33,089 bases of DNA from positions 1-33,089 of the forward strand of contig ML213543.1 in NCBI GenBank assembly GCA_004369045.1, written 5' to 3'. Positions 2,794-24,901 of the stretch are shown one piece after another. The notes under the pieces are model-generated. The model was not told the DNA's origin, searched no databases, and saw nothing but the letters and a program-made list of their open reading frames with translations. Source of the stretch: Heliocybe sulcata (Eukaryota > Basidiomycota > Agaricomycetes > Gloeophyllales > Gloeophyllaceae). How positions within the stretch are numbered: the first letter of the stretch is position 1; each line of letters begins with the position of its first letter. A program made the translations under genes and the position numbers.

Positions 2794-3969
2794 TTATATA
2801 GCCCTGTACCGGTTACCATACTCCGTGCCGCATGGAATAATATATTGCTGCAGGAATCGAGAGTGAGCAAAGTATCAGAACCACAGTCACTGCCTCATGC
2901 GTACGATGTGTTCCATAAACTCTCGCATCTCAAATTGCATCCTCTTGTCATTGATGTCACCGTCCACCCACTCATACCATTTCTGTACTTCCAATTTCAA
3001 GGCACATTCGAGAGGGTTGGGATCTGGCGCAAGTCGATATAGCCTTGAGCCGACGACCTGATTCGCTTGCTCCACGGCTTCAAGGTCAGATCTTGTGTGG
3101 ATGCGAAGGCATTGGAGTCCGAGACTCCACACCCAGAAATAGTGTACTAGCGAAGACGCCATGTCTTCGGAGGAGCCTCTTTAGTATTCGGACACATTCC
3201 AGTGAGTCAGCACGCAGGTGATACACAAAATGGGGGTGCGTACATGATGACAGCCGGTACTTCCTTGGCATCACAAGTTGTAATACACATCAGGTCCTCC
3301 TTGAATGTCAAAACCTCCTGCAATGGTCGCAATGTGGAAGGTTTGATACCGTGCCGGGACCCTTCTTGGCAAATGCGCGATAACACGTCGTGGAAGAGTG
3401 GGACGAACGCACAGAGACGGGAGAACTTTAGAAGGATTAGAAGGTAATAGGCGGCGGTAAGACGGACTGATATGTGATAGCGCCTGTCACTACGTGGTAC
3501 ATGCCTTGTAAGTCCGAATCAGCAGGAGTGATCAGCAGCAGACTCACATCACGAACTGCACCAGCCTCGAGATATCGCGGTTGTGATAAAGATTACGATA
3601 TACACCTAGCCTTATGGGAGGGAAAATATACGCGAGATCCTTAATCCACCAGCTGAGGCGTTTAGTACGCCTGTATCTACTGTCCAAAGGATCGTTGCGC
3701 CGCATAAGCCTAGTGAAAATTGCATCGGGTCCATTGCCCAAGAGATCGGAGCAGAAGCTGAGGAACATCTCCACTGAAGCAGCCATACGCTTGACGAGCT
3801 TTCCAAATGTCCTTCCAGGGCCGACGGCGTCGTCGATGGAGTCGTCGTCGGCGTCCGAGTCGGCGTACTCGTACTCGACACCCTGGATGGTGATTTGGCC
3901 GCCCGAGCCGAGCCATTCGACGGCGGCACCACGGAGCTCGAGAATGGAGTTGTCGTCGGTGGGAGGCAT
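2794..3969 (-). CDS. unknown family protein, copy A (4 exons, truncated C-terminus)
   Basis: Four exons are inferred by comparison with copies B and C: 3969-3548, 3489-3244, 3178-2905 and 2847-2794, giving 331 aa. Introns are 58, 65 and 57 nt, with GTGAGT, GTACGC and GTACGC donors. The ATG at 3969 is chosen because it aligns with the starts of B and C; the open frame runs upstream only through a GTG. The N-terminus (about residues 1-60) is conserved: an ELRGAA-x-EWLG-SGG segment, then an acidic ADSDADDDSIDDAVGPG run. A KLVKR/EMFLSFCSDLLGNGPDA segment follows. Exon 2 is hydrophobic and helical (YYLLILL). Exon 4 has lost about 40 bases relative to B, so it ends at TAA after YRAI and misses the cysteine-rich tail. 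No known domain is recognised and function is unknown. The copy may still be expressed in shortened form. Confidence 0.7.
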
Positions 3970-4008
3970 GGCAGGGTGGGGATGCACTTTTGCGAGGTCC
4001 GAGCTTGT

Positions 4009-4063
4009 CTTTATAGCAGACTAAACATTAGCATCTAATCTTATCAACCATGTCAGCCAATCA
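4009..4063 (-). promoter_or_regulatory. TATA box and CCAAT box of gene A
   Basis: TATAAAG lies at 4015-4009 on the minus strand, 40 bp upstream of the ATG. TGATTGGCT, an inverted CCAAT box, lies at 4063-4055. The same 9-mer lies upstream of gene C (23509-23517) and between genes B and D (10096-10104). Confidence 0.6.
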
Positions 4064-4424
4064 TGATGCAGTACCAGATCACATCTGTTCGAGGGGTTCT
4101 TTGGAATCGTGATGCTGCACCGTCTTGCCGGACAGCGTTTCGTTCACTGTTCTGTCCTGATACTGCCCTCCGTAGCCGTTGCTTAATGTTTACTTCCCCT
4201 TTTCTGCAACTCTCTGCCTCGACTGCTTTTCCCTTGCTGGCGACTGGCCGTCTACGGAGACTTTCTGTCCGAAACTGCTACCCCAGTCCTGGTTCTGCTT
4301 CAGCCCCAATTGCTGTCAGGATGGAGCCGACGCAGGAGGTTGCTTTCAGCATCGCGCACATTCATGCATCATGATCCGAAATATCGCATCTTTGATGCTG
4401 TCAGATCGGCATTCCCTTATTCTC
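4064..4424. other. no gene seen
   Basis: This is upstream sequence of gene A. Short overlapping ORFs exist on the plus strand but none has support. No repeat or RNA gene is seen. Confidence 0.3.
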
Positions 4425-5036
4425 TTACATGGGTGCTAAGCCTTTGAGGTATGTCCACAGTAACGGTTCGCGTCCTATATTCTCGTATACCTTGACATTA
4501 GCGGTGCTAGGAGTATCAAACGGAGTGCGCACTCCGCCTTTGAGATACATCGCCTCTGGACGCCTCCTCCGCGATCTCGGGTCGGACTTGAACTGTACGA
4601 GCACTTTGTCCGCGACGATCGGCACTGCAGCCTCTCCTACCATGCTCTCATACTTGACAGTGCCATCCGCCTCCATTATAGCTGTGCGCGACATTTGCAT
4701 CACATGATCCATTGGCCTTCCCCTCCCATGAGTCCCATTTGCCAGGGTGGACACGGACGGAAATGCCGGTCGGAAAACTGAACTCGGAATCCTGTTGACG
4801 GAGAAGGTCCATCCATTTTTCTCTGTCTTACTACTGCTGTGTTGCCAATATGCCGTATGGGTTTGCCCGATCATCGATCTGCTACATCCCCGGGCTGTGC
4901 CGACTGTACTGCAGGCTTCCGCAAGGTGTGCTCCTGGCCTCCGGAGGTTCACAGCGCGCACCGTATCCTCTACCCGTCCTCGACGCCGTCTCGGATCTTC
5001 CTGGCACGAGATGGAGGAGCTCTTAAGGCTTACCAT
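4425..5036 (-). CDS. possible unknown protein or C-terminal exon
   Basis: An uninterrupted minus-strand frame of 203 codons runs from the ATG at 5036. The last 80 or so residues look protein-like: a segment with VADKVLVQFKSDPRSRRRRP, then GGVRTPF and a short YLKGLAPM end. The first half is less convincing. Between about 4810 and 4670 a second minus-strand frame is also open and protein-like (it includes VRVHPGKWDSWEGKANGS), so a frame change through an intron or an indel is possible. I do not recognise a family. A 195-codon plus-strand frame overlaps (4747-5334) and is considered less likely. It lies between the A and B units and has no counterpart elsewhere in the window. It may be a gene fragment. 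Confidence 0.3.
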   Translation of the reverse strand: MVSLKSSSISCQEDPRRRRGRVEDTVRAVNLRRPGAHLAEACSTVGTARGCSRSMIGQTHTAYWQHSSSKTEKNGWTFSVNRIPSSVFRPAFPSVSTLANGTHGRGRPMDHVMQMSRTAIMEADGTVKYESMVGEAAVPIVADKVLVQFKSDPRSRRRRPEAMYLKGGVRTPFDTPSTANVKVYENIGREPLLWTYLKGLAPM

Positions 5037-5087
5037 TCTGGCCCTATACTCCAGCCGTATGCCCCCATTCCTCGGGTACAATCATTG

Positions 5088-5130
5088 GCATCTCATCTTC
5101 TCGTCTCGTCTCGTCTCATCTCACTCATCC
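5088..5130. repeat. TCTCG/TCTCA short tandem repeat
   Basis: A short imperfect run of TCTCGTCTCG and TCTCATCTCA units. It is a low-complexity tract with no gene. Confidence 0.5.
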
Positions 5131-6229
5131 ATGCCGCCCTATTGGGTCATATGCGCTGACACTGCTCAAAATGCCGACTCTGATACGTCCTCGTGGTCCT
5201 TACATTGTTCAATTGATCGTTCTTTGATTCAGTTCAACGTAATACTTAATAGCCTCGTCAACTGCGCTTGGTACTTGGAAATAACGCGAGCATGGATCTG
5301 TCATACAGCCCCTCGTGCACGTCTGCGTATTTGAGTCATCCCGTATCCTCGTTCGTCAGCTCTCACCGCTCACAGCTCCGAATAGCTACCTCGTCCGATC
5401 GGGTACTTCCACTCCGCCTCATCCCAGCCTAACTGCTTTTGGGGACAGACCAGAGCGTGGCAATGTCAAGAGTCCTCGCGCGATGCATGACCCGTCTGAA
5501 TAAGCACATACGGGGGCGCTGCCTAGATGGATACGGTATCTCCTTACCGCGTCCACGAGAGAATGTCCAACGTCCAGAAATGGATGGACTGTACTCGACT
5601 CGTTCTACTGAGCGCCTTCCTCCCTTGATGCGTCGGTACCTCATCTCCTCAGATCGAAACTATCCTCGTACGATAACTACTCTTCAAGACAGGACACCCT
5701 CACCTTTCGAATCCTTGTCTCGTTCTCTTCCTCGTACGCCCCGTATCTGACTCCATCCATCAATCCGGAGTCGGATGTTGAGCTCTCGATAGCTGGACTT
5801 GACAGCGTCTCGCACCTGGGCCTACTTGCCGACGGTCGCGCCAGACCAGAATCTATTTAAGTGATCAATCATTCTGTCTATTGTCGTGGTACAAGAGGAT
5901 GTCGTGGTATCGTGTCCTTCATCATTCTCTTTTGCTGATCCAGACTGTACTCGGGCGTAGACGTCGGACTCCGATACGCTCACCTCCACGACGCCGCTCG
6001 AGGAATAACTGAATTCCTCGAAGCGCTCACAGTATCTGCAGACCTCATCAATTCTCAAACCTCTAGGCGCTCTTCCTGTCTGAGGCGCGAGTCAGATCAT
6101 GGCTGTCGTACTGCAAAGAGGCTTTCGACGACGAGCCTATGATAGTCAGACGTAGGCTTCTGGTAGAGTATGGATCTTGGAGCCACCTTTGTGTGGCGTA
6201 CGTCTATAGGAGCGCATCGCGACTGAGTA
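5131..6229. other. no gene seen
   Basis: Pyrimidine-rich sequence with several short overlapping ORFs in both directions, none with domain-like or splice support. No similarity to the A/B repeat units starts before about 6230. Confidence 0.3.
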
Positions 6230-8026
6230 TTGCACGGACAAGCCGTCCATCCAATCACAAACCCGGCGCAAATTTCCGAGAGCGGGCGTTTCTTTTTCTC
6301 TTCCTGCTTCGCAGCTACCGTACTCAGTTCCTACGCCACGGGACCACGCTGTCTGGTACTATCAAGGAACTGGGAAGAGCTGCTATCCGTCCTCAATTCG
6401 CATCCTTGGTCTCTGCGACGTTGTTTCACTCCATAGGCCGGAACCGTCGATCTGCTGGATGCCCTATACGCACTGCTACTTCACTACAGACCATGACCGC
6501 TGGAATTTGTGGCCAGGTCGCGTTGAAGGTGAACCATGCGCTCCTTCCAGCGCGAGTGAACGGCGATGGGACGAGGATGAATTCTGTGGAAGTGGAGACA
6601 CAGGACTTATGGTATACGATAAGTTTTCCAGCCGTCCTTCTATGGTGCGTTTCAGCGAAATCTCGCTGGTCGTTTGCTTACAGCGTTTCACGTAGTACAT
6701 TAACATCGTATGTCTTACGTATATCAAATTGGTAGCGTTTGCTGCGCGATCGACTAGTTCAATTCGTTATCCGACTTCTCCAAGTCTATCCTCGCTCTCC
6801 CTATGCGTCTTTCCTGAGCTCATCTACATTGTCGTATCTGCTAGCGACTCCTGTCCCCCGCCTTCTTCTATCCTCAACATGTCTGTGCCTCCGCCAGTCT
6901 TGTGAATTCTTGGCCGGTAGACTCGGTGGATAAAGCCCCAGATGCATTCTACGGCTGCCTGGTCCTCTGGATTGACTGTCCGATGTTTCCGCTTCCGCAT
7001 TTTTATTTACCTCTAGTGCCGCGAGCGACCTATGAAAGTGGACTTTCGTCGCACGAGTGTTTGCTCGCTGTTCTCGCTTACCTACTCGAAGCCCGTGCCT
7101 TTGTTCAGTTCAGCCATCAGTGAGCTGTCTGTCTCTCCCGGCGAGGTCTCCTGTTATTCGTCATCTATTTATTTGAGACGGTGTCCCCTAAACAACATCA
7201 GGTACGAATCGACGGTGTACTCGGGCAACGGCCTCGATATCCGTCGTAGGCTTGGAGCCTTGGTTGTGGTTCTCCGGTATTCCGGATGCAACCATTCAGG
7301 CGGCGCTGTCCTGACGGTTTGACAATGACTCTGGCTTGAGAGTCGTAGCTGGACCGTGTCGGGCTCGGGTGCGCGAGCTCCTCGTATCCGGTCAGGCTTG
7401 AGTCTTCAACGAACCACATGCTATCGTAAAGCGCTACCCGCGCTGTGCAGGGCCTGGATCTTCACCGCAGCCAGTCACGAGTCTCGTGTCGGAGCAACGG
7501 CATTAGGGAGGACAACCCGCTTCACGTTCTCCTGACGCGTTCCTTCACCCGTATAAGCAGCTAAGTCATTGCTCCTAAAACATTGAGTACTCTTTTGGTA
7601 CTTCAACAGTCGAACTCTCTACAGCCGACGTTCCAACGCTCGTTCCGATTCCACACAATCAGCTGAGCGTGCGGGCTCAGAACCGCCCTTGCTGCTCCGT
7701 CGGAATAGACCGACATTGTGGACCGATTTTCTTCCGGCTCGGAAGCATCTGCTCTTTCAGCACTTTAATCTCAGCGGTTACCGTTAGCAGGAAGGTGTCG
7801 GAAGAAGGCATACACGGTCGATAGTGGGCGGGCGCCTAGTTAGGCGCTCGCCCGAGTGTGTCTTCCATCGGTGCGTTTATTCGGTACTTTGATTGGAGTC
7901 AGAGTGCGCTCGACTGCTCATGGAATGCGCAATCGTAGGTTTGTACGGTGGGCACTTGTCCTCTTCCTGGTACAGAGGTCGCAAACTCTGGACTCGTCAC
8001 CAGTATTCGGTGGCCACTGAACGCAT
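6230..8026 (+). repeat. 1.8-kb segmental repeat, copy 2 (downstream flank of gene B)
   Basis: Positions 6293-8026 match 160-1990. The first part, from about 6240 (CGTCCATCCAATCA), also matches copy 3 at 26113. It ends where both copies share GTCACCAGTA-x-x-CGGTGGCCACTGA (about 1960-1985 and 7996-8021). A hairpin with a perfect GCGCCTA/TAGGCGC inner stem and a GGGCG/CGCCC outer stem lies at 7826-7853. No protein-coding gene is supported. The repeat stands in the same relation to gene B as copy 1 does to gene A, so repeat plus gene was probably duplicated as one unit. Confidence 0.85.
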
Positions 8027-8029
8027 GGT

Positions 8030-8650: not shown

Positions 8651-9966
8651 CTATGAGAAGAGACGAGGAATTACTGAGCGCGGAGGACCTTGCTCGTGGA
8701 CGCACTGCGGGCACCATGGGAAAATGCAGCCTGGACATTGATTGTGCATGCTGTCTAGTCCAAGGATATCTTCTTGCCAATAATGGGATCCAACATCGTA
8801 GCAAGCTCTGGCCGTGTACCGGCTACCATACTCCGTGCCACATGGAATGGTATATTGCTACAAAAATCGGGAGTGAGTAAAGAAGAAGAAGCACGGTTAT
8901 ACTCTCATGCGTACCATGCGCTCGATGAACTCTTGCATCTCGATTTGTCCCCTCTTTTCAGTAAGCCAACCTGCAAAATAGTCATACAATTGCTCTCCTC
9001 TCGGTGCCGAGGCAGGTCCGAGCTGGCTGGGATCTGGCGGAAGTCGATATGACCTTGAGCAAATGGCCTGAGTCGCTTGTTCCGCAGCTTCAAGGTCGGA
9101 CCTTGTGCGGATCTCGTAATAACTGTCCCGTAGTCCATACACCCAGTGTTGGTGTACTAGCAAAGATGTCATGTTCTCCGACGAGCGTCTAGCAACGAGA
9201 CACATTCCAATGAGAGTCAGCGCAGCGGTATACGCAAAGTGCGGGTGCGTACATGATGGCAGCTGGTATTTCCTTTAGCTTACAGCTCCCGATACGTGTC
9301 AGGTCCTCCTTGGATGACACTGCTTCTTGTAGCGGTTGCAAGATCATCGAGGCAATGCCGTTTCGGGACCCTTCCTGGCAAAGCCGCAATAGGGGGTCGT
9401 GGATGAGCGGGAGGATAGTACAGAGCCTGTGCGATACGGTCCACTGCAGGAGGAGGAGAAGGTAATAAGCAGCAGTAAGACGGACTGATAGGTTGTATCG
9501 CCTGTCACTACATGGTGTACGTCTCGGTATACATTATGGAAAGTGATCAGGAGCAGACTTACATCACAAACTGCACCAGCCTTCCAATCCCGTCCTTGGA
9601 TAAAGGCCATATGTGCTGCGGATTGAGCTTAGACTCGTGAATCCACCAGCTGAGGCGCTTGGTCCGTTTGTAATGCCAGAGAGAAGGGTATTCGCGACGC
9701 ATAACTCTAGTGAAAGTAGCATCGGGGCCATTTCCCAAGAGATCCGAGCAGATACTGAGGAACATCTCCAGTGGAGCTGACACACGCTTCACGAGCTTCC
9801 CAAATGTTTTTCCAGGGCCGACGGCGTCGTTGATAGAGTCGTCGTCCGCCTCAGAGTCTGCGTACTCATACTCGACGCCCTGGATGGTGATTCGACCTCC
9901 AGGACCGAGCCATTCGAAGGCAGGACCGCGGAGCTCGACGAGGGAGAGGTCGTCTGCAGATGCCAT
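8651..9966 (-). CDS. unknown family protein, copy B (4 exons, complete)
   Basis: Exons are 9966-9563, 9507-9253, 9188-8915 and 8857-8651, giving 379 aa. Introns are 55, 64 and 57 nt, with phases identical to copies A and C. The ATG (CCATGG on the plus strand) is aligned with the starts of C and D. The N-terminus has ELRGPAFEWLGPGG, then the acidic ADSEADDDSINDAVGPG run, then KLVKR and EMFLSICSDLLGNGPDA. Exon 2 begins DRRYNLSVRL and has a hydrophobic YYLLLLLQW helix. Exon 3 contains SDLEAAEQATQ. Exon 4 ends in NQCPGCIFPWCPQC, a CxxC-x4-CxxC pattern that could bind a metal. No signal peptide or convincing membrane span is seen, and no known domain is recognised. It is divergently arranged with copy D across a short shared promoter. 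It is the most complete member in the window. Confidence 0.75.
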
Positions 9967-9998: not shown

Positions 9999-10185
9999 CC
10001 TTATACATGAAAAGCTGAGTGAATGTACAGCACTTGCAACGACGCGTCGGAAGGCTCTGCAGCATCAGTAATGCAGGTCATTGCTGTGCTTCATCTGATT
10101 GGCTCCATATTGAGATCAGATCGAACTTTATGCATTTATGCTTTGTGCTTGGCGTCGACGACAACTCTTTGTCTGCAGGCATATA
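9999..10185. promoter_or_regulatory. shared B/D promoter region with CCAAT box and TATA boxes
   Basis: The TATA box of B is TATAAGG at 10005-9999 on the minus strand. TGATTGGCT (inverted CCAAT) lies at 10096-10104. The left part of D's TATA box, GGCATATA, ends at 10185, where a Tc1-type element is inserted; the right part, TATAAGAG, resumes at 11740. Without the element, the starts of B and D would be about 260 bp apart, so this was probably a bidirectional promoter. Confidence 0.55.
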
Positions 10186-10213
10186 CACTGGCCTCAAAAA
10201 GTATCCGGACAAG
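10186..10213 (+). repeat. left terminal inverted repeat of the Tc1-type element
   Basis: 28 bp, the perfect reverse complement of 11712-11739. A TCCGG pentamer follows just inside. Confidence 0.95.
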
Positions 10214-10445
10214 TCCGGTTTTCATACATTCTCGGAAATGTAGCAGGGTAACTACTGGAGATTTTCTGTGTCATACAATATTATAACAAGCTAATCATAC
10301 ATGCAAAAGTATACTGTACAAGTTGAAGAACTGAATATTACAGTATAAAAACAGGACTTTTCTTGTGGAGGATAACCTCAAGATCTGCATGTCAGTAAAT
10401 TTGGCATTATTCTCGGGCAAGCAGGAACACAGGGACTCACCCATT

Positions 10446-11531
10446 TCAATATTCAGTATGACCTCCCTTGGCCCTCTTCAGAGCAGCAACCCAGTTGGGC
10501 AGACTTGCATAGAGTTTGTCGATAACAGCCCGATCAATCCGGTACCACTCCTCCTGCACAATGGCCCACAGCTCATCCAAGGAGGCCAGTTGAGGGTCAT
10601 GTTCACGTAGTTTACGCTTCAAATGGTCCCATAGAGCCTCGATGATGTTCGTATCAGGTGACTGAGCAGGCCATGGAAGAATATGCAACCTGCTATTCTC
10701 CAGCCAGGTCCGGGCCACCTTCGAACAATGCTTGGAATCATTGTCCTGCTGGAAGAAGTAGTGCTGAGGCTTCATATTATGGTCGGCAAGGGATGGGAGA
10801 AGATGATCATTAAGAATTTGGACGTAATCCGCACCACGCATGATCCCTTTCACCCGATGAATCCATCCGACACCTTCAGAGGTGATGCAGCCCCAAACCA
10901 TCAAGCTCCCACCACCGAATTTCTTCACCCCTTGAGTGTATCTCTCCTGAAGTGCTTCTCCAGGCCTCCTCCAACAGTATTCCCGACCATCGGACCCCAC
11001 CATGTTAATCTTCGTCTCATCTGAGAAGATGACCCTCTGCCACTCCCGCTCCGACCAACAGCTCACTCCCGCAGCCCACATGCACCGCGCGCGTTTGTGC
11101 TCTGCCTGCAGAAAGGGCACCCTCCTATGAACCGCAGACTTCAGCCCTTCTACCCTGAGGGCATCACGAACCGTGTTCTCGGAGACATGAGGGAAGTACT
11201 CCCACTGCAGTTCTGCTGCATTGCTTGCACGGCCACGGTCCATTTGTAGAACAGCAAATTTGCGCTGGGGTGTCCTGAGCAGCTTCGGACAACCAGGCTT
11301 AGGCTGTGGATAACAGGTTCCAGTTTGCTCGTAGCGCTTGATGAGGTCATAGATGGTGGATCGGGGAATCCCAAGCTCTTCTTTAATTTCCAGTACTTTC
11401 ATGCCAGCGCGGTAGTAGCCAATGATACAACCAGCAGTAGATGGTGTGGTATAGCCCATAGTGCAGTACAGAATAGGGTACACAGGCGGCGGTTGTGTTT
11501 GGCGCGAGGAAACGTTGAGAAGGGACCGCAT
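10446..11531 (-). CDS. Tc1-type transposase (DD34E)
   Basis: A 361-aa intronless frame. The N-terminal helix-turn-helix region contains MKVLEIKEELGIPRSTIYDL, as in Tc1 DNA-binding domains. The catalytic triad is visible: D171 in IFSDETKIN, D263 in FFQQDNDSKH and E298 in WPAQSPDTNIIE, with 34 residues between the last two. KFGGGSLMVWGCI is the usual core block. The enzyme cuts and pastes the element at TA sites. The start is uncertain: ATG 11531 is the first ATG, but ATG 11459 (MGYTTPSTAG) would give 336 aa, closer to the usual Tc1 length of about 340. No stop or frameshift is seen, so it may be active. Confidence 0.93.
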   Translation of the reverse strand: MRSLLNVSSRQTQPPPVYPILYCTMGYTTPSTAGCIIGYYRAGMKVLEIKEELGIPRSTIYDLIKRYEQTGTCYPQPKPGCPKLLRTPQRKFAVLQMDRGRASNAAELQWEYFPHVSENTVRDALRVEGLKSAVHRRVPFLQAEHKRARCMWAAGVSCWSEREWQRVIFSDETKINMVGSDGREYCWRRPGEALQERYTQGVKKFGGGSLMVWGCITSEGVGWIHRVKGIMRGADYVQILNDHLLPSLADHNMKPQHYFFQQDNDSKHCSKVARTWLENSRLHILPWPAQSPDTNIIEALWDHLKRKLREHDPQLASLDELWAIVQEEWYRIDRAVIDKLYASLPNWVAALKRAKGGHTEY

Positions 11532-11711
11532 CAAACACGCCCGTTATCGGCATCTCTGCACGTGACCACATTTTGTCGCTCCCTGCAGCGACTATTCTCA
11601 TGCTCTTTGTGCGCATATGTAGGATTGTATTTGTATTGTATATAGAAGTAAAATAAAGGTACATCAGTAATCTAATTGGTGTGATCCAAGGTCAGGAAGT
11701 TCCGGATGTGG

Positions 11712-11739
11712 CTTGTCCGGATACTTTTTGAGGCCAGTG
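11712..11739 (-). repeat. right terminal inverted repeat of the Tc1-type element
   Basis: 28 bp, a perfect match in inverse orientation to 10186-10213, followed by the TA target duplicate. Confidence 0.95.
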
Positions 11740-11780
11740 TATAAGAGAAGTTTGTCCCTCTCGGACTACTATATACTCCC

Positions 11781-11932
11781 ATGGTTTCTACTGACGACAA
11801 CTCCCTCATCGAGCTTCGCGGTGCCGCCTTCCAATGGCTCGGTCCTGGAGGTCGAATCACCATCCAGGGCGTCGAGCACGAGTACGCCGACTCGGACGCC
11901 GACGATGACTCTATCGATGACACCGTTGTCCT
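11781..11932 (+). pseudogene. unknown family protein, copy D/E: 5' part (codons 1-50)
   Basis: Begins at ATG 11781 with ELRGAAFQWLGPGG, a GRITIQG segment and the acidic ADSDADDDSIDD run, clearly the N-terminus of the A/B/C family. After codon 50 the similarity stops abruptly at the inferred left end of the KDZ element; the frame runs on into element DNA to 12047 as unrelated sequence. The missing continuation is found at 18968. Its promoter is also interrupted, by the Tc1-type element just upstream. The gene was therefore disrupted twice. Confidence 0.85.
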
Positions 11933-12253
11933 CAGAAAGTCCGGCTATTGGAAAAACCACCAGCAATCCATGAAATCCACCGTTGGCCACGTTGCCTTCG
12001 TGGTTTGCCTTCGTGGACTGCACAGAACATGTGTCACACTATTGTAGATGTGACATCGGCGATTGCCCTCAGCTGCCGCTTGTCATCATCGTCATCAGCA
12101 CCCTTCACGTCCTGTCGATGCATTACCCTAGTATCTTCATGAATCGTGCGATTCGTGACAGGATCCTTCCTAGTCTTTGCACATATAAGGGCCAAAAATA
12201 CTGGTACATGCTGCCCTCCTGACTCCTCACTCTCGTCGCGCTACCTGCCTGCC

Positions 12254-14352
12254 ATGCCTCGCATTACTCGGGCAAAATCCAAGGCGTCCTATATCCCGTG
12301 TCCTGGCAAGAAGATTGGAAAAAAGAAGAGGATACCATGTGGGCATCTTATCCCTGCACGTCTGCAGTGTCGAGGAGCTAGGACAGCTGAACATGATGGG
12401 TATTATTATCAGCAGGTGCGTCTTTGTCAGTACAGCTTCTTCCGGCTCATTGTTCGATCATATATCTAGTGTGGTCACTGCGGTCATTTCGACTGGGTTG
12501 CCCCTCCACAGGATGACATCGGAGGCAGTGATGTCCATGAAGATCAGCCTCCTACAGGCTATCCCTCGCCTCCAGCATCAATGCTCCAGGGACCATTTGC
12601 ACCACTCCACCCAGCAATGCCACCACCTCCGCCATCACCGCCACCACCTCCGCCATCACTGCCACCACCTCCGCCGTCGCCATCACCTGTCCCATTGTCA
12701 CCTGCACCAATCCTATCATTGTCAACAGCATCTATCCCCGTATCTTCCACTCCCCATATTGCACCCAAGAGGATCTGTGTCTTGTGCAAGCAGGCAACAT
12801 CTCCAGCAACCTGCAAAAGGTCCTTATGCAAGACCTGTTGTCTCGTACAGCCTATGCCATGCAATTACAAGAATCATCAGCCTGTGAGCGTGACTCCACT
12901 GAGCCAGTCTTGTGAAGATCCCTGGAAATTCAACTACCCTCCCCCAGCCCATCCTCCGTCCGCTTCTGCTGCCGCACCTCCCCAGCCTTTGACCTCACAG
13001 CCACCACCTCCTATCACCCGTCCATCATCAGCTGAGGCCCAGATCGACGCTTCGCCTCCTCCATCCACGGAAGTCTCATTGGCAAAGCCAAAGATATACC
13101 ACAAAGCTGCCCCGAGTGCTCTTTGTGAGGACTGGGATCAACACATGAATGAGCGGGATGAGCAGCTGGCTTTGCAGAAGGAGAAGTCAGAGTACGAGCG
13201 GATGGTCAATAACCAAGTTCTCATTATCTTCTGGGGTCAGGTATGTGGCTGCTGATACATTATTTGACTGGGATGGCTTCTGATATCTGTATATTGCAGG
13301 AGAACACATGCCCCAAGCGTATCCGCGTACAGGATGTCAAGCCGTGGCCAACCCTTGATCTCAAGAGGCGACCAGATGTGTTGTCAGAGATAGGACTTAC
13401 AGTGGACTCTCCGATCGAGGTCTATTCTGTTCGTTCAGGGCAGTGGTATGAGAATATAGCACGATGGGTGTTTAAGGTGGAGAAAAGCGAGCAGCATGTG
13501 TTGATCCGAAAGAGCGGAGTTGAGGAATGCCTGCAGTTGAGTGAGTATATTGCTGCTGAGGATGGGTCGAAGCGACGCCGCGGTATGAAGCGTCCTGTCC
13601 ACGATGTGGATGGCTCTGCCTCCCATCATGACTACTCGCCACGAGTCCGGTACACTCTGACACCAGATGGGACATCCCTACAGCACGTATCACCATCGCA
13701 TACCACCCCACAGCTCTATGTGCAAGGCACACCTTTCATGCCCTCCAGCTCTGGCTCACCTTATACAGTTTCACCTCTCCGTCGCTGCTTTTCATCTCCT
13801 GGTCCTTCTTCTGGTATCAGGCGACCATCTGAGATGCCTAAGGGCCTCTTCGCTGAACTCTTCGACTTTGGACATGGCTCGCAGCCTATCACCGACTTGA
13901 CTGGCAACTATTCTATGGAGGAAGCACTGGAGCTGCATGCTCGTGAAGCGATCACTTCGTCAGCCTCTGACCAAGTGCCTGTACCTGCTTCACCTGCTCT
14001 TGAGCCTCATTCATACCTTGATCCTTATTCCCATGATCCTTATGCTCAGTACCCTCTAAAGACTCCCTCGGTCTCTCCAGGCTTCCCTTCAGTATCTCAG
14101 CTCCTTGAACAGGTGCATCACCGTCGTCAGTCCTTAGTCAACACTCCTCCCATTGTAAACGAGGATACCCGCGATGAGCTCTGGAAGTGGAATCGAGTTT
14201 ACGTTCCAGAGGGTTCAGGCACCTGGCCAGATGGCATGTACGCTAGAGATATGGGTAAAGCATTCCATTTTATCGACAAGGGCAATGAGGCCCAGTTCCA
14301 GGCAGTGTTTCCAGGCGTGAAGTGGCCTCGCACTACGTTCTTTCAGCAATGA
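12254..14352 (+). CDS. KDZ-element accessory protein with GRF-like zinc finger and second cysteine cluster
   Basis: Three exons: 12254-12415, 12470-13240 and 13300-14352, giving 661 aa; introns are 54 and 59 nt and phase 0. Joining exons 1 and 2 creates a finger-like module at about residues 29-64 (CGH...C...GYYYQQCGHCGHFDWV), which resembles GRF zinc fingers (Cys/His ligands, an aromatic GYYYQ and a final FxW). A proline-rich stretch follows (about 100-140). A second cluster, CVLCK...CKRSLCKTCC...C, lies at about 157-185. A charged, probably coiled segment (NERDEQLALQKEKSEYERM) comes before the last intron. The C-terminus has tryptophan-rich KWNRVYVPEGSGTWPDGMY. The role is not established; carriage by the element suggests DNA binding or help in transposition. 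All frames are intact. Confidence 0.75.
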
Positions 14353-15269
14353 CAGGCCTGGAAACAGTCTACACTGGAAGAACGTGAGGCAGCAATGCAC
14401 CTTCCACGAACTAGCGATGGCCTGTGGACAAGATGGAGGGCGTCCGCATCTGGCTGGAAAGTTGTCCTGGACGCGAAGAGGCATGGGGCTCAGACGCACA
14501 TCAGCTAATTATATTTATAAATCATCCTATTCGCATATAGCTCCCTGTAGTTTGTTACCTTACTGTTATTAATCGATGTGTATATGACGGACGTGCAGTC
14601 TCACCCGCGCACCTGGACTATGTGGCTGTGTATTAGAGCGCTTGCTCTTCGCCATTTACCCTTCTCCTTTCACTACTTACTCGTGCATGCTCTCTGCAGT
14701 CCCCGACCCTGGCGGACTGATTGAGCAGCACCAAGGACTATCATGTTGAAGAACTTCGAGATATCGTCAATTTGCTGGTGGCAGAGGCTGGCGGATTGGT
14801 CTGGGTAGCAACAGGAATGACGGGTTGGCACTGACATAGTGACACATCATCTGCCGAGAGAGGCCTCATGATTACAGGAGCTGCTGTATGGTGCGTTGTA
14901 TCCCAGCATATTTCTATGTTCTATTTTGGCACGATTTCGTCCTCCCTGGTGGTTCAAGGCTAAGCTAAGCTTGCTCGGCATGCCTGCAGTCGTCTTGCGG
15001 CATAGACCATAGGTGTGGGCACACACGCCAACCCTTAGGTCTTTGCTGCTGGACATGCCTACATGTGCTGAGTTTGCACGGCTTCAGCCGCTGTTTTTTC
15101 TACTTTGGTCATTCTTTACTTATTTCACGAGGAGGCTGACTGATGGCGTAACGCGCACTCGATTGAAGGAATGTATGTGAGACCCGGCGATACGACACCT
15201 ACAACATGATTGGTTCGATATCGACATTGCCTGCCACCACTGTGGCCGCACAACATCGACAGGGACAAA
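14353..15269. other. KDZ-element interior, no gene seen
   Basis: Sequence between the accessory gene and the next coding-like region. No ORF above about 70 codons has support. No repeats are noticed. Confidence 0.3.
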
Positions 15270-16503
15270 GCAGGCAAACCGCATCGCTCGAGACCGCGAA
15301 CAACCAATGGCGAGAACTCTCACCACACAACCCGTGCTCGTGCAACCACCCGTGGCCGCCGTCGAGGTCTCTCTGCCGCCACTGCGCCACACAATCACCC
15401 CGCCATCGTAGAAGACACTCCTGTTGACATTGACGGTCCAAGCTGGCAGGATACCTACGTTCACATCACTGAGGATATCGCCTTGCATGCCTCTACCCGC
15501 GACCGCCTCCGTTGACAAGCCCAACATTGGCGCGGTATCACCGCCCTCTGTGCCGACTCTCCCGCTCCCACCTCGCCCGTCTTCATCCCGGATAATCCGC
15601 CTGGTCTCCGGCGCAAGCTCGAAGACGTGCGCGTTTAACCGGATGGCGGAGTTTCTCAACGGAGAGGAGCCCGCACCCTCTCGCCGCAGATGGACGGGTG
15701 TGCGGGTGTCAGCAGTGTAAGTAGAGACTGGAAAGACAAAGGTCAAAAGGCCGATCTCGATGGGTTCGGAGGAAGTAGGGATTGTGGTGCGTCATGCCTT
15801 CTCTCCAGCTGTAAAATCTACTGACTGTCGTCTCCGAACTCGACGTACAGCGAGACCTGCGTTGAACGGCCTAGGGCTGAATATTCCGCTGTCGCGCCCG
15901 CACTCCCAATCACCATTACCCCACCACGCAAATGCGTACCCGATGCCGAACCCTTGCCACTCGACTTCCCCGCCCCTGAGCTCGAAAGCTCACCTACCGG
16001 GCCCTGGTCCAGGGTTTCGACTTCATGCTCATTCCTCATACCCTACACCCCGCCCCGATACCCAGCAACCCTTGCACGGCTTTCAAGTCTCATGGACAAC
16101 GGGACATGTCAGTAGTAGTGGTGCCGAGCAAGCCCTGATGGAGATCCGTACAGACGGCAATACCCCAGATGCGCAAGAGATGGATGAGGGCGGCAGTGGA
16201 GAGGCATCGGGAGATGTATAGGGACCGAATCGGGAGGGAGGAGGCTTTGTACAACGGAGATGGGATGGGTATTGATACAGGGGAGAAATCGGAGCGAGGC
16301 GCAAGGGCGGAGGAGTCGAGAGAGGAGACAAGGAAGGAGGAGGATATGATGGATGTCGACGGTGTTCAGGAGATGTCCAGAGGTGCGTATCGTACCATTG
16401 CCAGTCAGAACGTAATGTTCTAATCTGTCCAGAGCAGAAGGTCGCTCGGCGCCACCTCCTACACCCATCATCGAATCACACATGCAGCTCGACTCTCCCA
16501 TCT
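15270..16503 (+). pseudogene. unrecognised gene inside the KDZ element, apparently decayed
   Basis: One plus-strand frame is protein-like from about 15290: basic RARATTRGRRRGLSAAT, then DIDGPSWQDTYVHITEDIAL and RDRLR. It is stopped by a TGA at about 15513-15515 and continues in the same frame (WRGITALCADS...IPDNPPGLRRKLEDV). It then shifts by one base near 15637 into MAEFLNGEEPAPSRRRWTG. A GTAAGT donor at 15717 and an acceptor ending at 15850 join in phase to ETCVERPRAEY. A plausible final intron (GTGCGT at about 16392, acceptor near 16440) leads to an end containing PPPTPIIESHMQLDSPI and TGA at about 16503. The middle joins around 16100 are not resolved. No family is recognised. It ends about 65 bp from the convergent transposase gene. 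Confidence 0.4.
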
Positions 16504-16567
16504 GAGGCATAGGCATAGGCAAGAAGGTTGCGGACAATGATACCTACAAATCAATGTACTATACATA

Positions 16568-18681
16568 CTACTGGGAAGGAAAGAACTTCATGTCGGGAAT
16601 ATAGCTAGGGATGTGACCGTCCTTCTGAAGCTTTGCTTTAGTGATCCGGTTCTTCCTCATGATCATTTCGTCAAGGAAGAAGTTGTACTTATCTACGCCC
16701 ATCTCTCCCGAACTATAGCATGGTAGCCACCCAGCCAGACATTGATCTGCTCTGCTATGGAAGAGTTGAACCGCCACTTCCATGACTTGCCACCCTCTCC
16801 AGGTACAAGAAGCTCAGGAAAACAGAATGGGTTACAGTGAAATGAACATTCAACATCGTTCTTCTTGTGCTTGCACTCCCAGTGAAAGACATCAACCGGG
16901 AAACCAACAGTGTTAATGAGAGGATCGCCTATGGCCTTGAGATGCTTGTAAAGCCCGCAGTTATTATCGTAGAATATGATGTCGGGCATAGACCCTGGAA
17001 CAGGGAATGTCTTGTATAGCATATCGCGGACTTGTGCAAGGCCTTCAGCTCCATAGAAAGTAGCACAAGCAACAATGATACCACAAGGCCGAACAAAGAT
17101 CTGTTCATTGTGAGTCCGGCGGCGACCGAAGAGAGCTCTGAGCTTGCGATTGCCAGAGGTAGACTTAGATGGACAAGACGGAAGCGCAATCTCCTCAGTC
17201 TCCTCGGCAGGAGCATCAGGGTCCATGGAGTCGACAGGGTTGGCAACAGTCGCACGTTCAAGTCTAGCCTTAAGCGTAAACATCGCACCATCACGTCTCT
17301 CGTAGTTTTGCTCCAAAAGGCGGTGCGTAGGATCTGCGCAGGTCATCCGATCATCAACGACTGAGGAATCACAGCCCTCTACAGAGCAGATATTCTCGAA
17401 GTCGGCATGGTAAGCACAGAAGCGGTCCTTGGTTCGCCTGAGAGGGTGATGACAGTTGTGGACAGCGCAGCATGGATGGCCAATAGTGAGGCCGTCAGTT
17501 ACAAGGACATGGAGTTTGTCTATAACATGCAAATCAGTGCCACGGTGATTTCTCATGGCCATAAATTACGTACATGTTGTGCCATCTTCATCCTTGGAAA
17601 ATGCCATGCATTTCTCGCAATAATGAGCCCACTCTGGCTGTCCCGAGCGGCAGAACCGGAGATTACGTTCGCGGACAGCATCCAGGTACCGATCTTTCTG
17701 ATCACCAGTATGTGGGACACGGAGAAGCTCATCCCGTCTTGTATAGTCCTCCAGAAGTGAAAGGATAAGGAACCCATCCCAAACGTGCTCTGTGCACAGG
17801 GAGAAGCTGAATCGCCAGCCTTCTGGTTGGTTCTCTGGATGAGAGAGACAGGTATCGTAGGTCCGAGCTCCATTTGTTGCGGAGGACCATGAAATGAGCA
17901 TGAGTCCGACAAAGAGATTCAGGACTTCGCGCTCAACATACTGGTGCTCCCCGACTTGGATAACTTGTGGGACGCCTTGGTAATATGTTCGAATACCTTG
18001 GTAGACAGAGTAGTTGTGGTAATAAGTGGTTTGGCAACGTGAACAGTAGAGATGGTAAGCGAAAGTAGCACAGGCACCTGCCGCCAAGGTGAACAGGACA
18101 GCCTCACGCTCGCCATCCTTGTTCCTGAGCAGGTGAATATTGCAGCATAGTGGATTCTGACAGGTACGCATAGGTGGATAAAGCATGTTTGGAGCGAGTC
18201 GCTGGGTGATTCCGTGTTGGCGAAAGAGGGCGTCATTCGTACCAGTACACCAGCGGCTCTCCCCGTAACTCCATATTGTATCCCGAAAGGCCCTCCAGCA
18301 GACATCCACATAGTCCAATGGAATGCAGCTAGCCGCAGAAAGGAAGTCGCGGTAATTTTCCGGCAGATGCTCAAGAGCTTCATTTTCAGGATCATAAGCA
18401 GAGGGCCGTCCAGTATGAACAAGTGCTACTTTAAGCTGAGATGCCAGTTCAACGAAGCGGATGGCCTGTTCCATAGTCATACATTCAAGAATGCCAGGTG
18501 CAGAATTCAGAATATCGCAGATCGCAGCAAGACTAGTGCCAGCCGACATGAGTGGTTGTCGCAGGGACTGAGTCAGCCACAGCTGGATACATCGGATCGT
18601 GACATACACCTGCACCGAGCAAGCGAGCAAGCACTGGTCAGACGTTGGAATGGCCACATGAATCTCATATTCCATAGTCAT
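16568..18681 (-). pseudogene. KDZ transposase with CxC5/CxC6-like cysteine clusters, frameshifted near the C-terminus
   Basis: Exons 18681-17574 and 17519-16693, with a 54-nt intron (GTACGT donor, TATAG acceptor), give 644 aa up to a premature TAG. Cysteine cluster one lies at about residues 175-230 (CQNPLCC...YCSRC). Cluster two is at about 385-435 (HPCCAVHNC...CSVEGCD...C). The RNase H-like acidic triad is probably D378 (VTDG), D554 (FYDNNCGL) and E626 (AEQINVWLGG). The usual family C-terminus continues in another frame: MGVDKYNFFLDEMI and onwards to a TAG at 16568-16570. The shift is explained by one extra GA unit in GAGAGATG (complement of 16701-16708). The N-terminal start is uncertain, because the open frame extends upstream to 18807 without an ATG. 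The copy is probably no longer fully functional. Confidence 0.8.
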
Positions 18682-18967
18682 ATGCTTAGCGACGCCATGT
18701 ACGGCATGGAGAGCTTCGTATTCGGCATAAAGTGTACACGACGTCACTGACGCAGCAGAAACACAATACTGTACTAGGGCGAAGCTGGACGATTGCGCTC
18801 GGGGCACCAGGTGGCTAACGGGCGGTGGTGTCGGTCCACGGGTCCAAATCGGGATGTGGCGGTGGGGGCCCCTTCACAGCTGTCTGATTAGCAATTCCAC
18901 GAGATCTCCACCCAGTTCACCCAGTCCGCCGTGGAATCCGTGCATTTTCCAACTCACGGTTGTCCTC

Positions 18968-19300
18968 GTTGTCCTAGGCAGGACTTTTGGAAGAATTGTG
19001 AAGCGGGTCGCTGCTCTGCTTGAGATGTTCCTGAGCTTTTGCTCTGATCTCCGGGGCCATGGCCCCGACGCGACTTTCACTAGACGTATGCATCGCAAAT
19101 ACCCTTGGCCAAAGGAGTACAAGCGCCTAAGCTGGTGGTGTAAGAAGTATATGTCCTGTCTGTAGTATACAGGACCTAAGGATAATGGTGAGATCGGCAG
19201 GCTGGTGCAGTTGCAATGTAGGTCTGCTATGAATGGTATCCGGATATTGGATAACAAGACACATACTGTTCAGTGAGAGGCGGTAGACACTCTCGTCTGA
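18968..19300 (+). pseudogene. unknown family protein, copy D/E: 3' part (from codon 49)
   Basis: From 18968 the frame reads GRTFG, IVKRVAALLEMFLSFCSD, HGPDATFTRRM and RLSWW, matching copies A, B and C residue for residue in position. With one copy of the 8-bp duplication removed, the codon number equals that of copy B (G52, T54, F55, G56). A TAG at 19163-19165 stops the frame shortly before the expected exon end. The exon 1 donor is still visible at 19218 (GTAGGT). An acceptor at 19271-19273 would give a 56-nt intron like those of the other copies, followed by a short exon 2 remnant (TGAGAGGCGG). Exons 3 and 4 were not found. Confidence 0.8.
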
Positions 19301-19335: not shown

Positions 19336-19353
19336 TAGTCGGGCGCCCGACTA
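19336..19353. repeat. 18-bp perfect palindrome
   Basis: TAGTCGGGCGCCCGACTA is its own reverse complement. It lies just downstream of the E pseudogene remnant. Function unknown. Confidence 0.6.
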
Positions 19354-20265: not shown

Positions 20266-20900
20266 NNNNNNNNNNNNNNNNNNNNNNNNNNNNNNNNNNN
20301 NNNNNNNNNNNNNNNNNNNNNNNNNNNNNNNNNNNNNNNNNNNNNNNNNNNNNNNNNNNNNNNNNNNNNNNNNNNNNNNNNNNNNNNNNNNNNNNNNNNN
20401 NNNNNNNNNNNNNNNNNNNNNNNNNNNNNNNNNNNNNNNNNNNNNNNNNNNNNNNNNNNNNNNNNNNNNNNNNNNNNNNNNNNNNNNNNNNNNNNNNNNN
20501 NNNNNNNNNNNNNNNNNNNNNNNNNNNNNNNNNNNNNNNNNNNNNNNNNNNNNNNNNNNNNNNNNNNNNNNNNNNNNNNNNNNNNNNNNNNNNNNNNNNN
20601 NNNNNNNNNNNNNNNNNNNNNNNNNNNNNNNNNNNNNNNNNNNNNNNNNNNNNNNNNNNNNNNNNNNNNNNNNNNNNNNNNNNNNNNNNNNNNNNNNNNN
20701 NNNNNNNNNNNNNNNNNNNNNNNNNNNNNNNNNNNNNNNNNNNNNNNNNNNNNNNNNNNNNNNNNNNNNNNNNNNNNNNNNNNNNNNNNNNNNNNNNNNN
20801 NNNNNNNNNNNNNNNNNNNNNNNNNNNNNNNNNNNNNNNNNNNNNNNNNNNNNNNNNNNNNNNNNNNNNNNNNNNNNNNNNNNNNNNNNNNNNNNNNNNN
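20266..20900. other. assembly gap (635 N)
   Basis: An unbroken run of N. Nothing can be said about its content; open frames crossing it are artefacts. Confidence 1.
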
Positions 20901-21194: not shown

Positions 21195-21617
21195 TTGCCG
21201 TCGCTAATCCCGCTCTTCGTCGCTAATCGTCGCTAAAGCTGCTGCTTGTCGCTAAACTCCTGGCAAGCGTCGCTCACTACCTTGCGCTTCTCGGAATCGT
21301 CGCTGCTCCGCATCCCCAGTCGTCCCGAGCTATTGCCAACTATTGGGCGCTGTCGCTACACCCGCCGCTGTCGCTTCGTCATATTTTCCCACGCATCGCT
21401 GTTTCGCTTATTGTGCACTTTCCGTCCGTTTCTTTCAGAGCTTTTGCTGTCTGTGTTCCGCCAGACACCAGAGGTCTTTTCGCTTTGTTCTATTTTTAAA
21501 GTCTACATCTATTTTTAGCGTTTAGCGCCTTTTCGCTTCTATAGCGCTCTACGTCGCTTCCGGTCGCTTTTGCCGCTTGTTCTATTTTTAGCGCTTCGCT
21601 ACGTCGCTCTTGTGGTT
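21195..21617 (+). repeat. TCGCT-rich interspersed motif tract
   Basis: TCGCT occurs 16 times on the plus strand in about 420 bp (for example CGTCGCTAATCGTCGCTAA and TGTCGCTACACCCGCCGCTG). Spacing is irregular, so it is not a simple tandem repeat. Two GTTCTATTTTTA stretches also occur (about 21488 and 21578). No coding frame is convincing. It could be part of a degenerate retroelement LTR or a protein-binding array. Confidence 0.5.
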
Positions 21618-23508
21618 TTGTGGTCTCGGTCCTATATTTCCCATTGACTCCCCCCGAACTACATTCATACCCTTCGATTCCCGGGGCCTCGCAGCTGCGG
21701 CAGCACCAAGGGATTGGTGCTGGTGTGTGGTTGTTGTTGTTTGTTTAGGTCTTCCTCTTTCCAGGTTTCGTCGTGTGTTCGTGTTCATCACCGGTCCATT
21801 CTAACGAAGGAGCAATCGAGAGACGACATTTTCAGTTGACTATGTCGAGCAGAAACGAATCCAGGGGCGGCGAGAGTGCCTGCGTCCAGAGTCCTGAACG
21901 CGGGACATGTCCGTTTCTGTATATTTTGACCTGTAACATGCACAATATAAGCACCTATATGGACAGAAAGACCGCCAATATGCACCATTCGCAGGCACAG
22001 GCATGGTGCTCTGACCGCATCGACAGGAGAGGGCATTGGGCGGATTTTATCGCGGATTGTCGCAGCCGGCACTAAACCGAATACACCGCCAGCGTGCCAC
22101 GCCAAATGCAGTACTCTACTTCAATCGGGCAGGTGAGAGACAGCATACCGAACATGATTCGCACAAAAATGATGCCCACTGGAACATTCTGATGTCAATC
22201 ATATCACGCGGGCATTTCCACGACAGAGGATTATGTAAGACTTGTTTCAGTGCGAAGTTTGAACATGGCATGGCGTAACCACAGGTCCACAGGTCGCCTC
22301 TTCCTGACATCCACGAGATACTGCTGTAGCGACATCCGTCAGACCTGGACAATAGCGCAGACGCTGAGGGGCCGGTTGATATATAATTTGCTGCTTGAGA
22401 TGCTCTCGTCGAACAGGTTCACCTGTTTGCTTCAGGATATCAATTCCGTAGTTGGATGAGATGAAAGAAGATCTGAGCGTACCACACCTTCGTCTGGCGC
22501 AGGATCTCAGTCCAACAGAGCTGTCGGGGTCTTCAGCAAGAGCCTAGTCGGCGACAAAGTCAGGCCGCGTGGACAGCTTGCGCCAATATCGAGAGGGCAG
22601 GACATGATCTCATACCGGGGTAATAAAGGCAGCAAAGCCAAGTGCGATATAAAAGGGGACGGACGATCCATGTTAAAGCATAGCCCAGGAATAGGACGAG
22701 GACTGATGCATTTGAAGGCCGAGAGGATAGCCTACGCAAGGGGAGCAGCATAGTCGATAGCATCCCAGCATAGAGCAGATGGATAAGCAGACGGAACTAA
22801 ATAGCGCACTGGAAGACACAGCATTCTGACAGGATGTGCCTTGTGTTGGACACGCGTGCCTCAAGTAGCACCCCTATTCCTCTATGTTGATCGGAACCGG
22901 AATACAGCAGCCTCATCGCTGGGTCTATTTACGTCAGCGTCCACGTTGGCAACTCGATGGTGAATGCAAAGAGATGCTCTTGACGCACGGGGCGCGCACG
23001 GTGGCAATGGAGACGGGTGGCACCGTCGTACACGAGACATAGAGAGGGGACCCAACCGCAACAATTTCAAACCACAGATCAGACGCAAAGTATCCAGAGC
23101 AAAGCTATGTATCTTGGAGGCAGTGCAGAGATACCGTTAGCAGCGTCGTAGTCGAGGACAGAGAAGGACGTGGCAGTGCCCGAAGCATGAGGCAGACAAT
23201 GTAAACCATTGCTGTGAATGATAAACCTGACCTAGAAGAAAAACATATAGCATGAGCGAGCATCGAGTTCACAGCATGAAAGATACAACATGCCGGAAGT
23301 ACAGACACCGTGCAAAGACTCCAAAGGGCCCTCTTGCTCAAGCCCGTCCAGACACATTTCAATGTTGAAGTAGAACCAAAGTTTGCATAGCAGATTTGGA
23401 CAGAAAGTCTCTAGGGACTGACCTATGCCAGCAAGGGGAAGTCTCTCAAGGCGGTGAGTGACAGAGTGCGCAAACCTTCGGACAGACCCGATCAGTGTTG
23501 CTGCATTC
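21618..23508. other. no gene seen
   Basis: No supported gene. Around 22285-22460 one plus-strand frame looks weakly protein-like (LPDIHEILL, ALVEQVHLFASGY) but holds three stops, so at best it is an old remnant. Other ORFs overlap on opposite strands without support. Confidence 0.3.
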
Positions 23509-23517
23509 TGATTGGCT
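23509..23517 (+). promoter_or_regulatory. CCAAT box of gene C
   Basis: TGATTGGCT (inverted CCAAT), the same 9-mer as upstream of A and between B and D. It lies about 140 bp before the ATG. The following GATTAGAT also resembles the A upstream region. No clear TATA box is seen. Confidence 0.5.
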
Positions 23518-23655
23518 GACTAACCTCGAATGATTAGATTCTATCTTTAGCGCATATTGTGCCTCTCAAAGCGCGACGTGAGAGCTGTACCGCGCCTATA
23601 CCAGCAGCTGTGACCTCCTCAAGTAATGTTAGAGCACCAACATTCCCTCCCTACC

Positions 23656-24901
23656 ATGGCTTCCAGCGACAACTCTGTCGTCGAGCTACGCGGCTCCGCT
23701 TTCAAATGGCTCGGGTCAGGCGGTCGAATCACCATCAACAATATCGAGTACGAGTATGCTGACTCTGACGCAGATGACGACTCCATCGAGGACGCCCTCG
23801 GCCCTGGAAGGACAGTAGGGAAGCTCCTGAAACGTGTCTCCGCTCCGGTAGAGATGTTCCTGAGCTTCTGCTCTGACATCCTCGGCAATGGTCCCGACTC
23901 GATTTTTACTAGGCTTATGCACTGCCACTTCCCTCATCGCAAAACGTACAGGCAAACTAAGCATATAAGCTGGTGGTTTAATGAGTTTGGACTCTGTCTG
24001 CTCGAGACTAGCTCTGAAGACGATCATCAGGCTCAGAGGCTTGTACAGTTCGTGATGTAAGTGTGCTATTGATCCCCTGTGGTCATGTATAACAATAAAT
24101 GTGCTGTCCAGTGACAGGCGATATCACCTATCAGTCCGTCTCACCACTGCCTATTACCTTTTACTTCTTCTGGAGTGGACCCAGTTGGCTGATCTCTGTC
24201 ATACCGTCCTACTCATCCATGACGTGCTATTGCAGTTCTGCCAGGAATGCTCCCGGAAAGGCATCACGTCCACTATTTTGCGTCCGTTAGAAGATGTGGT
24301 GTCATTCAGAGAGGATGTGATACGTATCGGGAGCTGTGGGAACAAGGAAATATCAGCCGTTATTATGTACGTACCCATACTTCCTGTGTACCATCATGCT
24401 ATCTCTAATTAAAATGTGCTTGTATGGCAAAGCAGCTCTTCTAAGAATAAAATATCTTTGCTGGTACAGCATCACTATGCATATAGGCTAATATGCAGTC
24501 ACGACATCCGCACTATGTCCGACTATGAAGCCACGGAACAAGCATGTCAACTCATTTGCTCGACCTTACGCTGCTGCTCGGCTAATACCAACCCTCTCAC
24601 ATCTGCTCTAAAATCGAGAGTACAGCTCGACTGTGACAATTTTCTACGTCGCATCAACTACAAGAGGAGTGCGATCGAGACGCAAGAGTTCATCGAGAAT
24701 ATGGTATGTATAAGCGAGTAACGGCGCTCATGATATTTTGCTGACTCTCAAGTTCTGCAGCAGTATATCATTCCTTGTGGCCTGGACTATGGTAGCTTGT
24801 ACAGGGCTGACTCTTGCAGTGGTCGTGGATACGAGTACTGGTATCACGATATTTCTGTACTAGACAGTGTGCAGAATTCATGTACAGGCTGCGAGCTCTG
24901 A
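23656..24901 (+). CDS. unknown family protein, copy C (4 exons, complete)
   Basis: Exons are 23656-24056, 24112-24366, 24436-24703 and 24761-24901, giving 354 aa. Introns are 55, 69 and 57 nt, with GTAAGT, GTACGT and GTATGT donors. The exon 3 acceptor could also lie 3 bp earlier. The ATG at 23656 (CTACCATGG) aligns with B and D and is preferred to the in-frame ATG at 23626. The N-terminus has VVELRGSAFKWLGSGG and the acidic ADSDADDDSIEDALGPG run, then EMFLSFCSDILGNGPDS. Exon 2 begins DRRYHLSVRL with a YYLLLLLEW helix. Exon 3 (YEATEQACQ) is much less conserved. Exon 4 ends after NSCTGCEL, so it keeps only the first CxxC of the pair seen in B. Function is unknown. It stands alone, without the 1.8-kb repeat directly downstream. 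Confidence 0.72.

Follow-up and report, generated by a model that had tools for sequence, protein, structure and literature searches.

An unnamed four-exon gene family of Heliocybe sulcata with alternating protein constraint and diverged gene cores between similar flanks

In the het genes hetA-D of Aspergillus fumigatus, divergence is concentrated on the coding region plus a few hundred bases while the flanks are ordinary, and Tajima's D has fallen under 2 by 500 bases away from the coding sequence (passages of PMC11138114). The HNWD genes of Podospora anserina (het-d, het-e, and het-r) are paralogs with constant and fast-changing parts and encode STAND proteins with their specificity in the WD repeats (PMC2873952). 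For basidiomycetes, part of an article from 2021 (PMC8229728) calls the mechanisms of somatic incompatibility completely unknown. Here we describe a gene family of the basidiomycete Heliocybe sulcata found in a window of 33,089 nucleotides (nt), the whole stretch of DNA analyzed (GenBank assembly GCA_004369045.1, contig ML213543.1, positions 1 to 33,089, forward strand). The window is the start of a contig of 75,113 bases (C41) in a fungal assembly of 31.6 Mb and 51 contigs. The family has a pattern of divergence like that of hetA-D; however, hetA-D are alleles of one locus studied in a population sample with tested incompatibility, whereas the present comparison is between paralogs of a single genome, and there is neither a phenotype nor a shared domain. 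The genes are paralogous and mosaic like HNWD, but they match no STAND or WD-repeat profile, and tandem repeats were not detected within A, B, or C; copies J and L have a doubled head. The FunK1 kinases (PF17667) likewise form a large family in the same genome, with members near copy L, whereas the present family is without kinase similarity and gave no match to PF17667 in Pfam-A.

The genes constitute a real, so far unnamed fungal gene family with several copies in the window. Copy A (2794..3969, minus strand; exons 3969-3548, 3489-3244, 3178-2905, and 2847-2794; 331 amino acids (aa), with a short exon 4), copy B (8651..9966, minus strand; exons 9966-9563, 9507-9253, 9188-8915, and 8857-8651; 379 aa), and copy C (23656..24901, plus strand; exons 23656-24056, 24112-24366, 24433-24703, and 24761-24901; 355 aa) are four-exon paralogs. 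Their spliced models have intron phases of 2, 2, and 0 and intron lengths of 58/65/57, 55/64/57, and 55/66/57 nt, respectively. In tblastn searches within the window, exon 1 of B matched A (64%, E 4e-46), C (61%, E 4e-46), D (80%, E 6e-16), and E (57%, E 1e-22); exon 2 of C matched A (E 8e-30) and B (E 2e-28), and exon 3 of B matched A at 50% and C at 45%. Copy D (11781..11932, plus strand) is the 5′ part of an exon 1 and ends in the 8-bp repeat GTTGTCCT, and copy E (18968..19213, plus strand) is the remainder of that exon and carries an in-frame stop; no match to exons 2 and 3 was obtained for D/E by tblastn. A KDZ-associated element (11933..18967, no strand assigned) with the cysteine clusters CxC5 and CxC6 lies between them and is bordered at each end by GTTGTCCT; it yielded no clear terminal inverted repeats. 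D and E are thus one copy, the fifth, cut by the KDZ-associated element. A preliminary description of this stretch, made from its letters, had proposed a multi-copy family of conserved four-exon structure with equivalent splice phases, consisting of A, B, C, and a split D/E in differing states of integrity. All of these copies were recovered, the outer end points 2794 and 24901 agree, and the four-exon structure stands, with phases that are partly hand-placed.

In the automatic spliced search, intron 2 came out at phase 1 in A and I, the donors chosen for intron 3 in B and F differed from those of the other copies (making this intron 45 nt long in B), and H was left without a model. The sites of intron 2 in A and I, the intron 3 donor in B and F, and the whole of H were set by hand at the canonical sites matching those of the other copies, and the intron 2 acceptor of C was shifted 3 nt by hand. 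Because of this hand placement, the shared phase of intron 2 in A and I, as well as the H model as a whole, is partly by construction. Codon-position bias was present in 4/4 pairs for each of exons 1 and 2 (uncorrected P < 0.05), which indicates that the similarity among the copies is not due to chance. The same test gave 0/4 pairs for exon 3, for exon 4, and for the introns, and 0/5 comparisons for the flank blocks F2 and F3 described below. None of the four indels of exon 3 breaks the frame, though its pairs lack the bias. Frame-breaking indels numbered 4/20 in the exon comparisons and 32/43 in the flanks. The codon-position bias and this contrast in indels indicate that constraint lasted through high divergence.

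The divergence of each gene segment was calculated from the six open copies A, B, C, F, G, and I, with the 15 pairs pooled and codons bootstrapped. The pooled proportions of synonymous differences (pS) were 0.485 for the head (residues 1-90), 0.544 for the exon 1 tail (residues 91-135), and 0.526, 0.531, and 0.537 for exons 2, 3, and 4, whereas the corresponding proportions of nonsynonymous differences (pN) were 0.121, 0.428, 0.242, 0.380, and 0.294. The pN/pS value of the exon 1 tail (0.79; bootstrap 0.63-0.98) was the highest of the pooled segments, and those of the head, exon 2, exon 3, and exon 4 were 0.25 (0.18-0.34), 0.46 (0.36-0.57), 0.72 (0.61-0.84), and 0.55 (0.40-0.75), respectively. 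A run including H (21 pairs) gave the same order, with median computable dN/dS values of 0.14, 0.71, 0.31, 0.57, and 0.41 from head to exon 4. Since the silent divergence is even and the amino acid divergence alternates, the protein is an alternation of a constant head, a variable linker, a constant exon 2, a variable exon 3, and a partly constant exon 4. The preliminary description, which had suggested a per-exon comparison of this kind, had read the protein as a conserved head with a variable tail. The head and the variability of exon 3 bear this out, but exon 2 is again conserved and exon 4 is intermediate. Similarly, the conservation claimed for the N-terminal 110 residues holds for residues 1 to about 90 (pN 0.12) and fails for residues 91-135, the most variable part (0.43). 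Exon 4, said to diverge strongly together with exon 3, does so at its ends: that of A has 17 residues before the stop, that of B extends 22 residues beyond that of C, and that of F is diverged, but a core QYxIPCG...LDSxxNxCxGC is kept in several copies. Cysteine is kept at positions 317, 330, 352, and 355 of B in 8/8, 4/6, 4/5, and 4/4 of the rows with a letter there, respectively.

Exon 1 of C gave 16 matches in the genome at E 0.001 or better, which group into 13 loci: A, B, C, D/E, F, G, and H on C41; I, J, and K on C46; L on C27; M on C7; and N on C8. All matches of exon 2 (11) and exon 3 (8) fall within these loci, and the diverged copies M and L as queries only added rows on C10 and C29 at E 0.2-0.35. 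The number of 13 loci is a lower bound because the search scores best candidates only and long N runs occur on C41 and C46. Such runs occupy 20266-20900 of the window and C41:33090-49143, where family copies may be missed. In the eleven models, covering all loci except D/E and N, introns 1 and 2 are in phase 2 in 11/11 and intron 3 is in phase 0 in 10/11, counts that include the hand-placed sites noted above; exons 3-4 of K and M are uncertain. The proteins have about 331-432 aa. J and L contain two heads inside one exon 1, which are 46% (J) and 38% (L) identical to each other over 61 columns. Two in-frame stops interrupt H, only a fragment remains of N, exon 4 of A is short, and D/E is broken. 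Intact and broken copies are clustered together in a transposon-rich setting. Hydropathy gave no clear membrane segment (top 19-residue means of 1.74 in the uncertain copy M and 1.62 in A and H), and no leader was noticed by eye in the family proteins. No run of four TTAGGG repeats, as expected of a telomere, was found in the whole assembly.

Copies A, B, H, and I lie between non-coding flanks that are 86-95% identical, whereas their introns and exons 1-3 are 68-77% identical. Block F2 occupies the 3′ flank of A (667..1985) and of B (6754..8020; 0.911 identical to 667-1985 over aligned sites), and block F3 occupies the 5′ flank of A (4564..6201) and is 89.8% identical to C46:21209-22844 upstream of I. 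No strand was assigned to these blocks, and no coding signal was found in them: F2 has stops in six of six frames (10 to 23 per frame), and F3 has stops in the three frames shown. An F2 frame with a shared ATG has 165 codons in A and 96 in B; because its 43 substitutions are without codon bias (P 0.52), it was taken as chance, although it may encode a short peptide. A genome-wide comparison gave four matches for F2 (667-1985): the query itself next to A, a second next to B, a third next to H, and a stretch of 51 bases some 3 kb upstream of I. F3 (5100-6200) gave two, its own position upstream of A and a site upstream of I. Each of these matches sits near a family member.

The identity between A and I was 0.947 in the far flank, 0.796 in the near flank, and 0.754 in the introns, and 0.751, 0.699, 0.697, and 0.833 in exons 1-4 (exon 4 over 54 sites). 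The far flank (1199 sites) differed from the introns (175 sites) with a Fisher P of 5e-14. In 150-base windows of the 5′ side, the identity of this pair was 0.95-0.97 from -2331 to -1431, 0.91-0.92 to -1131, and 0.82-0.89 to -381, followed by 0.77 and 0.68 next to the gene, 0.76-0.83 at the start of the gene, and 0.67-0.78 beyond. For F2, the identities of A-H and B-H were 0.860 and 0.889, whereas exons 1-3 were 0.68-0.77 identical in these pairs and in A-B; the likeness of the 3′ flank is lost before the gene in all three. The flank likeness of A-C and A-G is limited to short weak pieces. These values suggest that the cores most likely separated earlier than the flanks, through recombination. 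An old core in young flanks, looked for as a mark of balancing selection, is seen between the paralogs A, B, H, and I of this one genome and is not seen between C-G or C-F. Recognition or conflict genes maintained for a long time would show this pattern, and so, equally well, would a neutral family whose flanks were homogenized. This pattern and the alternation of constraint are additions to the preliminary description. An assembly containing two haplotypes was considered as a cause of the contrast between A and I, and it is unlikely because one 8-kb control region on C7 is single-copy, a judgment resting on that one region. C41 and C46 have the unit and scattered short stretches in common and no longer collinear block.

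Searches for relatives gave nothing significant. Ten members compared with Pfam-A at E up to 10 gave two chance-level families (best E 0.15, below their cut-offs), with no NACHT, NB-ARC, HET, or other named domain, in agreement with the preliminary description, which had recognized none. No transposase, integrase, gag, or cysteine-cluster profile of Pfam-A matched the family, whereas the same library did detect transposon profiles in neighboring elements. The preliminary description would have been refuted by a profile hit identifying the copies as parts of a known transposon protein; Pfam gave no such hit. The genes are described as a host gene family without similarity to Pfam transposon proteins. 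PADLOC gave 0 families for the 10 members at E up to 1, Rfam gave 0 matches on the window, and sequence profiles of the PDB gave best E values of 0.53 for the whole protein and 0.54 for exon 1. By tblastn, none of the 11 pattern matches in IMG/VR and none of the 61 in GTDB genomes encodes a relative. AlphaFold2 modeled exon 1 (five window rows) with a mean pLDDT of 50.5, and the Foldseek search with this model (best E 0.51, none ≤ 0.001) was not used; exon 2 alone was predicted with low confidence as three helices (pLDDT 60.2). A literature search found no title or abstract opening describing the family, which may be described elsewhere. "Undescribed" here means not found in Pfam, PADLOC, PDB, IMG/VR, and GTDB, a set that includes no fungal protein database.

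Since diversity retained over long times in genes of this kind is a usual trait of recognition and conflict loci, we tentatively favor, with a probability of about 0.4, a recognition or conflict role in which selection maintains the diversity of the copies and recombination keeps their flanks alike. The constant head, doubled in J and L, would be a common interaction or signaling module, and the variable linker (residues 91-135) and exon 3 would form a specificity surface. Selection would preserve the differences between copies, and probably between alleles, in the manner of recognition or genetic-conflict loci, with recombination meanwhile keeping the flanks alike. We count in support the alternating pN/pS values, the A-I and F2 flank contrasts, the flank blocks found only near members, the doubled heads, and the clustering of intact and broken copies. 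A narrower version is unlikely: the genes would encode unnamed intracellular recognition proteins that selection keeps diverse, built of a constant head plus two variable segments, and these would act in somatic (non-self) incompatibility. Several results weigh against a recognition or conflict role. No pooled segment among the five has a pN/pS above 1, and positive selection is therefore not demonstrated; in the run including H, 5/97 computable single-pair values exceed 1 (three in the exon 1 tail, one in exon 3, and one in exon 4). Introns and synonymous sites share the excess divergence, and amino acid selection alone therefore cannot cause the flank contrast. The step between gene and non-gene is not clean, as the near 5′ flank of A-I is just 0.796 identical and the identity of A to I, B, and H over its 54 exon 4 sites is 0.81-0.85. 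The contrast is limited to A, B, H, and I, and the pairs C-G and C-F present the ordinary picture of a common gene without a common flank. Homogenization of flanks by ectopic recombination gives the same contrast without a recognition role, the comparison covers paralogs of one genome with no allele seen, and the PDB, Pfam, and PADLOC searches gave no domain that would place the family in a pathway known to act in recognition or death. The self/non-self or defense role proposed in the preliminary description is thus left with a pattern of the kind left by long-lived diversity, but with no pooled pN/pS above 1 and no relative found among known recognition genes.

The genes could equally well be an ordinary lineage-specific family undergoing birth and death, whose variable segments are simply less constrained and whose flanks were homogenized by non-allelic gene conversion or unequal crossing-over after the cores had become too diverged to convert. 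Such a history agrees with variable segments at or below a pN/pS of 1, with the frequency of broken copies (D/E, H, and N among the 13 loci), with the extension of the flank contrast to introns and synonymous sites, and with the poor resolution of the trees of the five gene segments, in which 18/20 supports are below 70. By itself, however, it explains neither the 5′ fall of A-I near the gene and the 3′ loss before the gene in A-B, A-H, and B-H, nor the position of the most variable segment directly between the two most conserved ones. A selfish family of the spore-killer or meiotic-driver type, multiplying and decaying through biased transmission, would also produce fast-changing, clustered, partly broken copies amid transposons; it is improbable, as no significant profile match was obtained in Pfam or PADLOC and nothing favors drive in particular. 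Decay is visible in the short exon 4 of A and the diverged one of F, the stops of H, the broken D/E and N, and the loss of exon 3-4 similarity in K and M. A dying family, in which most copies are becoming pseudogenes and the mosaic is residual constraint, is nevertheless about as improbable, given the codon-position bias of exons 1 and 2, the rarity of frame-breaking indels in exons relative to flanks, and a head pN/pS of 0.25. Dispersal of the copies by a mobile element, with the genes as its cargo or as a protein of it not yet described, is very improbable. Tc1/mariner, KDZ-associated, copia, and Plavaka elements abound on the contig and some units share flanks, but the flank blocks match near family genes only, introns are kept in 11/11 models, and two elements sit inside or beside copies instead of carrying them. 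If selection maintains the diversity of the cores, the family offers concrete candidate genes for recognition or conflict in mushroom-forming fungi. The A/B/H/I units, in which old genes lie between young flanks, lend themselves to typing in a panel of strains. Under the neutral alternative, they are a clear case of flank homogenization around diverged paralogs.

Between the divergent copies B and D lies a Tc1/mariner-type element (10182..11743, minus strand) with perfect 32-bp terminal inverted repeats and an open 362-aa transposase frame (DDE_3, 10446-11534), which is probably a recent insertion. A copia-type element with gag and pol frames occupies 26838-31399 of the window, and its two 206-bp terminal repeats (26838-27043 and 31194-31399) are 98% identical. 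Plavaka elements are also present among the transposons of the contig. Together with the KDZ-associated elements and the many FunK1 matches given below, they are in keeping with a mushroom-forming basidiomycete. A second unnamed family has just two matches in the genome (L043, C46:26337-28495; L047, C46:64633-66706), each located about 1.5-1.65 kb downstream of the family copies I and J. FunK1 kinase sequences lie near copy L (L049, C27:309.5-312.6 kb), and FunK1 gave 114 exon-level matches genome-wide, among which pairs on C42/C50 and inside C6 have equal scores.

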